Origin: Natrinema caseinilyticum
GTDB lineage: Archaea; Halobacteriota; Halobacteria; Halobacteriales; Natrialbaceae
Reading direction: 5' to 3'
Assembly: GCF_024227435.1 (NCBI RefSeq)
Contig: NZ_CP100446.1
Coordinates: 186,001-250,000 of the forward strand
Length of the DNA: 64,000 nucleotides
Positions 35,546-38,031 of this stretch are shown here, one piece after another. Made by a program: the position numbers and the translations under genes. The notes under the pieces are model-generated. The model saw only the letters and a program-made list of their open reading frames with translations. It did no database searches and had not been told where the DNA came from. Within the stretch, counting starts at the first letter, position 1. Every line of letters starts with the position of its first letter.

Positions 35546-35557
35546 TCAGGTGTCTCC
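35523..35557 (-). terminator. Perfect 9-bp inverted repeat at the end of the coiled-coil gene
   Basis: GGAGACACC (35523-35531) pairs with GGTGTCTCC (35549-35557) across 17 nt. The right arm lies in the last codons and the stop codon is in the loop. On the minus strand it would form a hairpin at the mRNA end. No T-run follows, so termination is a guess; it could also protect the 3' end or bind a protein. Confidence 0.4.
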
Positions 35558-36412
35558 GGAACCGGCCATTTCACCGGGGATGTCGACGTCGTCCATCAAC
35601 AAGACACGTCGTTCCGTGTACTCGAGGCCGTTCTTGCGCTGTGTCCGCTTTTTGACTGCTAGCCTGCTCTTCGAGAGATCGAGTAACGCATCGATCGTTC
35701 GGGAGACCAATTTCTTCGCGTAGTCGTCACTGATGCCCTTCTCCTGGCGTCGAATCCAGTGTTTCATATCGCCAGCGGTAACATACTCTCGAACGCTTGC
35801 ACTTCCCTTTCGCCAGGGGTTGTCTCCAACCGACGGATCGGTACGTGCCTTCCAGAGCTTTGCAGCAAGCCGTGACGGAAGCGCCGATGTCGTTGCCCGG
35901 AGCATATCTTCGTCCATCTTCGCGAGCTGCTGGAGTGGAAGCAGATCCCCATACGAGAGGGAGACATCGCCACCACGCTCGAGTGGGTCGTCACTCTCGG
36001 GCAATCGGAAATAGCTCTCACCATCGTCTTTGCGGATGCGCTCGAGGCGGCCATCCACAACGTCGATCTCCCCATTATCGATGTGTTCTTCTAGGAGGTG
36101 TGCGCCCTTCTCGAGTTCTCGTGCCTGGAGTTCACCGACGCGATCCTTGTTGGCGTTGAGTTTCTTCTCGTGGGCGTCTAGTCGTGCTTCGATGGGTGTC
36201 TGTGATACTTCCAAGTCCTCGAGGCGTGCTTCGAGATCCTTGTTTTCGCTGTGGGCTTCCTCGAGTTCGGCCTCAAGGTGACCTATGCGGTCGTCCTTCC
36301 GGGTGAGTTCGTCCTCGAGGGTTGTGACACGCTCGTGAAGGCGCTCGAGTTCGTCGACGAGTGTTTGGAGTGTCTGTGCGTCAGGTTCGGGACAGTCTGT
36401 GTTCGCGCTCAT
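35546..36412 (-). CDS. Coiled-coil plasmid protein
   Basis: This is a 288-residue protein. Residues about 12-105 form a heptad-rich coiled coil (LVDELERLHERVTTLEDELT and on). The rest is basic and globular, with ISDDYAKKLVSRTIDALLDLSKSRLAVKKRT, a helix pair that could contact DNA, and a C-terminal strand region. Proteins of this build are common on haloarchaeal plasmids but have no assigned role. The gene is 280 bp from its upstream neighbour and is followed by the 9-bp inverted repeat. The interval 36413-36693 upstream shows nothing I recognise. Confidence 0.7.
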   Translation of the reverse strand: MSANTDCPEPDAQTLQTLVDELERLHERVTTLEDELTRKDDRIGHLEAELEEAHSENKDLEARLEDLEVSQTPIEARLDAHEKKLNANKDRVGELQARELEKGAHLLEEHIDNGEIDVVDGRLERIRKDDGESYFRLPESDDPLERGGDVSLSYGDLLPLQQLAKMDEDMLRATTSALPSRLAAKLWKARTDPSVGDNPWRKGSASVREYVTAGDMKHWIRRQEKGISDDYAKKLVSRTIDALLDLSKSRLAVKKRTQRKNGLEYTERRVLLMDDVDIPGEMAGSGDT

Positions 36413-36693: not shown

Positions 36694-37311
36694 TTAGAGT
36701 CGACAGTCATGGCTTGCCAGCGTGGTAAGCGAGTCGAACGGACACTCGCAGATATCGCAGTAGTGTCTCTGTTCCGTGAGAAACGTCTCATGGTTCGTGT
36801 GGCCGCCATCGGGAACGGCAGACTGTCTTTGTTGATTGGGTCCACTAGAATCGTGCTCGCTGGGCCGTCCCTGTACGTGAAGATCGACTTCGGTAATCGG
36901 TTCACGACCAGTTTCTCTCCAATCGCTGTTGCGGCGTTCGTGTTCGATCCGCCAGGCTTCGCCACCGGTATCGGGGACAATCATCACCCGGCGGCGACGG
37001 CCGCTGATCGACGTGTACTCAAACACGAATTCGACGGTTGGTTCGGTGGGCTGGTCGCAACCGCCGTCGGTTGCAAGACGTGGGTCGTCATCAGCATCGA
37101 CGAGCAGAGTTCCGTCCTCGGTCTCGAGAGTGTGGGATCGGATATCGTCGTCGGCGATAATGATCTCCGAGCCGTCGGTCGCTTCGATGTCGCCCGGTTC
37201 GTAGCCGGCGACGGCGCGGGCCTCCGCTCGAAGGCGCATCTCGCGAGCGCCTTCGCGCTCGAGTTGTTCGGCACGCTCTGCGACAGCTTCGTGATCGTTG
37301 ACGAACGTCAT
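36694..37311 (-). CDS. Hypothetical protein with C-terminal zinc-finger motif
   Basis: This is a 205-residue acidic protein. The last 25 residues read HYCDICECPFDSLTTLASHD then C, a C2H2/C2HC finger (C-x2-C-x12-H-x1-C). The N-terminal part starts with a helical region, and the middle has YTSISGRRRRVMIVPDTGGE. It overlaps the upstream small gene by 4 bp (ATGA), so the pair is one operon transcribed through the folded leader at 37614-37690. Confidence 0.65.
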   Translation of the reverse strand: MTFVNDHEAVAERAEQLEREGAREMRLRAEARAVAGYEPGDIEATDGSEIIIADDDIRSHTLETEDGTLLVDADDDPRLATDGGCDQPTEPTVEFVFEYTSISGRRRRVMIVPDTGGEAWRIEHERRNSDWRETGREPITEVDLHVQGRPSEHDSSGPNQQRQSAVPDGGHTNHETFLTEQRHYCDICECPFDSLTTLASHDCRL

Positions 37312-37613
37312 TGGTCGCCCACCTCGACAGCGCCGACGATCGCGTCAGCCATCGTCTTGAACAGGTACTGCACTTCGAAGCCGCCGCGACGGTCGGCGAT
37401 GTAATCAATCCAGTCGTCGATCGTCTTCTCGACGTCCACGAGGTCGTAGCGGACGGTGCGCTCGCCGTTCTCGATAACGTGAACGGACTCGTCGGTCGTC
37501 CGATAGACGTGGTGTGCGCCCTCGTTGTCGATGCCGACAGAGATGTAGTCAGCGCGTGGGTCAGTAGTCTGTGCTTCCGAAACCGTTTCGTGGGTTCGCG
37601 GTTGAACACTCAT
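37308..37613 (-). CDS. Small conserved-looking plasmid protein
   Basis: This is a 101-residue protein from ATG 37613 (MSVQPRTHETVS). It has a strand region (ADYISVGIDNEGAHHVYRT, VHVIENGERTVRYDLVDVEK) and a C-terminal helix (FEVQYLFKTMADAIVGAVE). It looks like one globular domain of unknown fold. The start codon directly abuts a 7-bp hairpin, and a three-way-junction fold lies before that, so its translation is probably regulated. It overlaps the next gene by 4 bp. Confidence 0.65.
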   Translation of the reverse strand: MSVQPRTHETVSEAQTTDPRADYISVGIDNEGAHHVYRTTDESVHVIENGERTVRYDLVDVEKTIDDWIDYIADRRGGFEVQYLFKTMADAIVGAVEVGDQ

Positions 37614-37690
37614 TGCTTCTGTAGCTCCAGAAGCGCAGGTCGGCTGCTCCAACAGCCGGCCGAGAATCGGTTTTCCCGGCCACCCTGCGC
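37614..37690 (-). promoter_or_regulatory. Folded 5' leader: three-way junction plus start-abutting hairpin
   Basis: Stems, in + strand coordinates: P1 pairs 35-39 of the 376xx block with 84-88 (GCAGG/CCTGC, 37635-37639 with 37684-37688, extendable by two pairs). P2 pairs 37658-37662 with 37677-37681 (GGCCG/CGGCC). P3 pairs 37641-37646 with 37653-37658 (CGGCTG/CAGCCG). P4 pairs 37615-37621 with 37628-37634 (GCTTCTG/CAGAAGC) and ends one base before the ATG at 37613. P1 encloses P2 and P3, and P4 stacks next to P1. The promoter likely lies near 37719-37726, so the whole fold would be transcribed as a leader. Confidence 0.6.
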
Positions 37691-37723
37691 CTCATAGTTG
37701 CTACTCTATCAGCCAATCTATTA

Positions 37724-37756
37724 AACCTATTGGTTGTAGGTTATCACCAGTAGGTT
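37724..37756. promoter_or_regulatory. Operator-like repeats between divergent genes
   Basis: Three half-sites: AACCTA (37724-37729), then inverted TAGGTT (37737-37742) and TAGGTT again (37751-37756). They overlap AT-rich boxes that could serve both the minus-strand leader gene and the + strand winged-helix gene at 37789. Autoregulation by the winged-helix protein is the simplest reading. Confidence 0.5.
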
Positions 37757-37788: not shown

Positions 37789-38031
37789 ATGAGTATAGCA
37801 ACCAAATCTATGGACGCAGACGATATGCGCGACGCTGATTGGGCAATCCTCGACGTGCTTCGCGAAGGGCGTGCAAATGCACCGCTTATCGCCGAAGAAG
37901 CGGGCTACTCTTCGCAGTACGTCCGAGAGCGACTTGGGCGTCTGAAACAGGACGATATCGTCAAGCCACTGGGGCATGGTATCTATGAAATCAATGAAGA
38001 CGAAGTTCCGGAGCATGATCACAATGAGTAA
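37789..38031 (+). CDS. Winged-helix regulator, phiH1-repressor-like
   Basis: This is an 80-residue protein from ATG 37789 (MSIATKSMDADDMRD). DADWAILDVLREGRANAPLI, then AEEAGYSSQYVRERLGRLKQ, then DDIVKPLGHGIYEI form a winged helix like small haloarchaeal phage phiH1 repressor-type proteins. The divergent promoter region carries a repeated AACCTA/TAGGTT half-site. The next gene starts inside its stop (ATGAGTAA) but is broken by an amber codon. Confidence 0.8.
   Translation: MSIATKSMDADDMRDADWAILDVLREGRANAPLIAEEAGYSSQYVRERLGRLKQDDIVKPLGHGIYEINEDEVPEHDHNE

Follow-up and report, generated by a model that had tools for sequence, protein, structure and literature searches.

What does a compact RNA fold do directly in front of a start codon, in organisms that favour leaderless messages? 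The question arises at ATG 37613 on the minus strand of the window, the 64,000-nt stretch of Natrinema caseinilyticum DNA analysed here, where a sequence-only reading had placed a three-way-junction leader beside a divergent operator and had called such a leader unusual. That judgement agrees with a transcriptome study of Haloferax volcanii, in which translational control by structured leaders is ‘not typical’ (PMC4983044).

The leader 5′ of ATG 37613 has a minimum free energy of −46.3 kcal/mol; 200 dinucleotide shuffles average −29.2 ± 3.2 kcal/mol (z −5.4), and not one of them (0/200) folds as stably. A chance GC-rich fold is ruled out by this z score together with the covariation among homologous leaders given below. 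The elements of the fold are as follows.

37691–37684 with 37639–37632, minus strand: closing stem P1, 8 bp, with two further pairs possible out to 37693/37630 (8–10 bp).
37684..37693, minus strand: 5′ strand of P1 (GAGGCGCAGG), the predicted mRNA 5′ end, placed by the fold and by P1 covariation in 92 leaders.
37630..37639, minus strand: 3′ strand of P1 (CCUGCGCUUC), the final 5 nt of which double as the 5′ arm of P4.
37658..37681, minus strand: hairpin P2, 37681–37673 with 37666–37658, 9 bp, apex A-rich.
37642..37657, minus strand: hairpin P3, 37657–37652 with 37647–37642, 6 bp, a near-invariant GGUG/CACC-type stem with a U-G or C-A wobble-type cap pair.
37615..37634, minus strand: start-codon hairpin P4 (GCUUCUG...CAGAAGC), 37634–37628 with 37621–37615, 7 bp, ending 1 nt 5′ of the ATG and excluding outer P1.

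The three-way junction of a closing stem and two hairpins is thus borne out by the fold and by stem coordinates checked against the sequence, and the 7-bp hairpin one base before the ATG lies exactly where it had been placed. The closing stem is present, longer than the 5–7 bp first given to it; both inner hairpins, described as 5 and 6 bp, also exist, with 9 bp in P2 and 6 bp in P3. Positions 37634–37630 (GCUUC) are common to P4 and extended P1, and both stems cannot form fully. No terminator hairpin with a U-tract is found around the window copy, and a reading as transcription attenuator or terminator was dropped on that account. The window contains no tRNA.

The next question is whether the fold would be in the RNA at all, and the features that bear on it lie upstream.

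37719..37725, minus strand: TATA box TTTAATA, serving the leader transcript, with a predicted start at about 37695.
37724..37756, no strand assigned: operator read from the sequence, with half-sites AACCTA 37756–37751, AACCTA 37742–37737 and TAGGTT 37729–37724.
37789..38031, plus strand: divergent 80-aa winged-helix repressor-type protein (HTH_24, E = 2.8e-6; PHROG transcriptional regulator, E = 2.8e-10).

Across leaders, the profile shows a TTTATAAG-like box with its centre about 30 nt 5′ of P1, and an A-rich BRE at −37/−36. Since TATA and BRE keep a fixed distance from P1, transcription is expected to start about 3 nt 5′ of P1, a position predicted from the usual archaeal promoter spacing. 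In the window this places the start 5′ of P1; a start at or after 37620, which would have left the fold outside the RNA, is not what the TATA box predicts. The leader is predicted to fill the whole 5′ UTR, from about 3 nt before P1 to the ATG. In the window, an ATG at the predicted start (37695, minus strand; ATGAGG) opens a 43-codon frame over the leader and the start of ORF1. This ATG is not conserved in other leaders, and a leaderless upstream frame was set aside as an explanation, being missing from leaders that begin TAGAG.

The half-sites noted earlier over the likely promoter are present, and the TAGGTT half-site overlaps the TATA box (37725–37719). At least two AACCTA-type half-sites occur at the 8 loci with the window's type of repressor and at 0/72 others. 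Because the operator tracks the repressor type, repressor and operator are taken to be exchanged together while the RNA stays. A short divergent ORF faces the leader at 81/86 loci, mostly of HTH type, with a few spurious. Another family of divergent repressor-type proteins (PHROG 26393, ‘...TDREYISGEGD...EELRDVVCE’), present at four loci (L008, L095, L105, L137), is accompanied by a different operator.

A divergent small HTH repressor with an operator at the promoter, as found here, is the arrangement of the phiH1/phiCh1 repressor–operator region, which likewise joins a small divergent winged-helix repressor to an early operon in a haloarchaeal virus. The phiH1/phiCh1 region has early lytic leaders and an antisense RNA, which phiH1 uses for control. 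The leader RNA model has no match in the immunity region of either phiH1 or phiCh1, which rules that region out as a carrier of the leader. The early region of the isolated tailed virus HJTV-4 (OP374082) carries a leader copy, 5′ of ORF48 and with the MarR-like ORF47 divergent; it differs in that its annotation has hypothetical genes only and leaves the RNA unannotated.

Is the fold, then, particular to this locus? Relatives of the 101-aa protein encoded at ATG 37613 (ORF1) occur in 32/125 genomes of the family (Natrialbaceae), and nearly all have the same leader architecture directly 5′ of their ATG, despite differing promoter regions and stem sequences. With a hand-set structure, 98.5 % of cells are paired across 22 leaders and 11 pairs show double changes. 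A covariance model built from this alignment (R1) finds the RNA in 118/392 genomes of the order (E ≤ 0.01), and a second, from 93 leaders (R2), in 130/391 Halobacteria genomes and 52/86 genera (E ≤ 1e-4); no genome beyond the order matches in a phylum-wide sample. The window's own genome has ten clear copies, the next match reaching E = 0.2. Rfam 15 gives no match at the window leader (E up to 5) and none at gathering score in 20 homologous loci. The leader belongs to a widespread RNA family absent from Rfam, and no published description of it was found in literature that mostly leaves out subscription journals. Copies lie on haloarchaeal plasmids, viruses and integrated elements, and in viral contigs as well. 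In one tailed-virus contig (L144:9874-13003) two leader cassettes with HNH-type genes lie among structural genes, like phage morons, and at another locus the leader has a CRISPR repeat (L004:2740-2769; Rfam CRISPR-DR24) at a distance of about 0.9 kb.

Pairing in homologues is kept through compensatory change in both the 22- and the 92-leader alignments. Among 92 distinct leaders, 97.0 % of cells are paired compared with 78.7 % when shuffled, in an alignment that was fitted to the model and is biased towards it, whereas the 22-sequence alignment is free of such fitting. Nineteen of 21 base pairs have changed on both sides, the leaders being related by descent and the compensatory cells therefore not independent events. 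For covariation the real leaders score 0.541 and shuffled ones 0.203, and slid partners never exceed 0.104. Stems preserved through compensatory changes within a predicted 5′ UTR mark this as a candidate structured cis-regulatory leader. Geometry is constant across 99 distinct leaders, with a P1 of 8 bp in 85 and no spacer between P2 and P3 in 91. Two distant homologues (L049, L050), whose leader has a larger P2 and a conserved AGGAAACG stretch, may represent a further subtype. The ORF1 proteins of L038 and L003 are nearly identical (95 %) and their leaders very different, which suggests that leader and gene recombine as modules.

An element acting as DNA (an operator, origin or recombination site), with palindromes that merely resemble RNA, would suit the carriage on mobile elements and the palindrome in the coding block described below. 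Strand and position are fixed between TATA and ATG, however, the covariation fits a nested single-strand fold with G-U pairs included, and reverse-strand matches of the model are weak; such an element is hardly credible here. The suggestion of a small-RNA-like control element likewise found no specific support, nearly all copies ending at an ATG.

If the leader is an RNA, what does the overlap of P1 and P4 imply? P4 begins within the P1 3′ strand and ends 0–1 nt 5′ of the ATG in 97/99 leaders, the AUG itself lying outside it. A P4 score of at least 10 is reached by 96/99 leaders; after tails are exchanged between leaders, a mean of 36 leaders reach it (maximum 47), and after shuffling 12 (maximum 20). 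As the P1 3′ strand is also the P4 5′ arm, the pre-AUG segment duplicates the mRNA 5′ end and competes with it for one strand. In 94/98 leaders at least 3 nt of that strand pair with both, through 33 distinct shared strings; GAAGCA/GAAGCA, AGACC/AGACC, GAGGCA/AAGGCA and AGGGCG/AGGACG are examples of such copies. In the leader alignment the shared columns show changes on either side of each of their two pairings. Read in one fixed register, P4 is paired in 70.6 % of cells compared with 58.5 % shuffled, a low value because the register slips one base between types. Among 20 new matches outside the set from which the rule was drawn, 16 pass a strict strand-exchange test. When each state is enforced, the two lie +1.9 ± 3.2 kcal/mol apart on a total of about −42, energies that apply to 37 °C and 1 M salt and not to molar KCl. 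An expression platform with mutually exclusive stems, such as riboswitches have, is thus predicted.

These observations lead us, with confidence a little above even, to read the leader as a strand-exchange translational switch of mobile-element operons. The RNA would act in cis and make up the complete 5′ UTR of a repressor-controlled operon's first gene. Once the divergent repressor leaves the operator at the TATA box, a transcript would start about 3 nt before P1 and fold into the three-way junction of P1, P2 and P3. Where the P1 3′ strand pairs with the mRNA 5′ end, P1 would be closed and the bases before the AUG unpaired, with translation probably on; where it pairs with the pre-AUG copy, P4 would form against the start codon and the base of P1 would open, with translation probably off. 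Near-equal energies would let a factor, growth condition, the exact transcription start or folding kinetics choose the state. The change may be small, since P2, P3 and inner P1 can stay formed in either state. Structure and conservation are observed directly in the alignments; from them we infer an effect on translation, its direction, its trigger and switching in cells. A start codon buried in structure does repress in Haloferax volcanii (PMC8241225). The earlier suggestion of a translational switch thus gains from strong covariation and from mutually exclusive pairing at the start codon, upheld on new sequences, with switching itself inferred. Shine–Dalgarno masking was discarded as an explanation: a GGAG lies in the P4 loop of the window and is no general feature of other leaders.

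The main rival to the switch is a static structured leader, in which junction and start-codon hairpin would serve to bring in or place the ribosome, or to shield the 5′ end, and no regulated switching would take place; its working form would be P1 with four or five inner pairs and full P4. Conservation on both sides of the AUG, the constant position at an ATG and a nearly invariant P3, whose U-G/C-A wobble-type pair resembles a recognition surface, all fit. We nonetheless consider it unlikely, as it leaves unexplained both the strong covariation of outer P1 pairs that clash with P4 and a 5′ end that copies the pre-AUG segment. Cleavage at P4, yielding a stable RNA of about 78 nt and a leaderless mRNA, would account for leaders that end so regularly at the ATG, and leaderless mRNAs are translated well in haloarchaea (PMC4983044, PMC8241225). 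With the leader matching none of the ribozyme or processing families that Rfam lists, and with the conserved coding block left unexplained, a processing signal of this kind is very unlikely.

The operon itself has these features.

37308..37613, minus strand: ORF1, 101 aa, a disordered conserved N-terminal tag and a small alpha/beta body.
37569..37589, minus strand: conserved coding block, codons 9–15 (GAAACGGTTTCGGAAGCACAG), with synonymous-site conservation and a palindrome at 37578–37590.
36694..37311, minus strand: second operon gene, 205 aa, with C-terminal relatives 3′ of other leaders.
35546..36412, minus strand: coiled-coil gene, 288 aa, recurring downstream on the same strand in 12/59 leader loci.

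Downstream of leaders lie mobile-element proteins that fall into about 19 unrelated clusters, a SWIM zinc finger and a RAMP-like protein among them, and many of these proteins carry a common N-terminal tag, MSxxxxTxETVS[ED]AQ. Within the tag, rare codons are fixed: E9 is GAA in 56/56 (29 % in bodies), V11 GTT in 49/51 (14 %), S12 TCG in 50/55 (32 %) and E13 GAA in 27/27 (29 %). In the window (37569–37590, minus strand) a perfect palindrome, CGAAACGGTTTCG, lies in codons 9–15, beside rare synonymous codons kept across unrelated proteins. To test this independently, 84,980 genomes were scanned for the 21-nt block alone, with the leader left out of account. The scan returned 23 matches, 20 haloarchaeal and 3 bacterial; 19 of the 20 haloarchaeal matches have a leader model match ending 21 nt (once 18) upstream, the twentieth folds alike, and the three bacterial ones have no leader model match. 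The RNA element is accordingly judged, from codon usage and co-occurrence, to extend into the gene, the first 15 codons being part of it. Pairing of the block with the P2 apex, the P3 loop or the P1 3′ strand shows no excess over swapped leaders and was rejected, though in the window CGGTTT of the coding block does match AAACCG of the P2 loop.

ORF1 is only 19–30 codons long in some loci; in several, a small conserved gene overlaps it or follows it closely, so that ORF1 may act there as a coupled leader frame. Five copies in the window's own genome (L123, L124, L126, L128, L129) have no evident HTH neighbour; in these ORF1 amounts to its first 16 codons or so, and a small RLEEV-type gene follows closely or overlaps. 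One leader (L106:3347-3418) lies 5′ of a RAMP-like CRISPR-associated protein with weak Pfam and TIGR03986 matches. The 101-aa protein has no curated family, its only match being an uncharacterised PHROG, and its structure model (pLDDT 72) has no fold match; assignment of a function from this protein failed.

Proteins bear on a further alternative, an autoregulatory leader in which the ORF1 product, the coiled-coil protein or a host protein binds the junction and thereby either prevents or permits translation, strand exchange being secondary. Three-way-junction leaders are known for ribosomal proteins and provide a precedent, and the coiled-coil gene does recur in the operon. The P3 hairpin is conserved, its cap pair alternating between U-G (38) and C-A (42), two pairs of like shape, and a near-invariant hairpin with such a cap suggests that something binds there. 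With downstream proteins so diverse, and the coiled-coil gene in only 12/59 loci, no encoded protein is constant, leaving a host protein as the possible binder; the ORF1 model, moreover, has no fold match. Control by a bound protein is, on this showing, rather improbable.

The proposed switch may be set beside known systems. Like translational riboswitches and other alternative-stem leaders, it has a junction-closing stem, one strand of which is also part of a hairpin at the initiation site; it differs in that its unpaired bases are mostly variable, no Shine–Dalgarno sequence is masked and the competitor is a copy of the mRNA 5′ end. Among the unpaired bases, where a riboswitch would keep a ligand pocket, conservation is only 46–66 % in the junction, and the P3 loop has a U at 87 % and a purine at 100 %. 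A single metabolic theme, as expected of a riboswitch, is not found among the roughly 19 downstream clusters. The leader would thus work like a riboswitch-type leader by analogy, and membership of that class is not claimed. Ribosomal-protein autoregulatory leaders (e.g. S15-type three-way junctions) also place a three-way junction beside the start codon, whereas this leader resides on mobile elements and has no Rfam match; no ribosomal-protein gene is among the downstream proteins examined. In the synthetic theophylline riboswitches of Haloferax volcanii (PMC8241225), structure over the start codon likewise controls translation, but those are artificial and ligand-controlled. The only natural archaeal riboswitch shown experimentally is the fluoride one of Thermococcus kodakarensis (PMC8241225).

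It seems evenly poised whether these leaders make up an undescribed class of archaeal control: a mobile whole-UTR switch in which the mRNA 5′ terminus and its pre-AUG duplicate compete for a strand of the three-way junction, joined to a conserved gene start of 15 codons and passed among viruses, plasmids and integrated elements, with repressors and payload genes that can be exchanged. Haloarchaea are thought to be without translational control through structured leaders, and a covarying two-state family in a third of the sampled genomes would change that view. The family would also point to early control regions in many haloarchaeal viruses and plasmids that lack annotation and, if the switch is real, would offer a natural regulatory RNA to a model group short of riboswitch tools.
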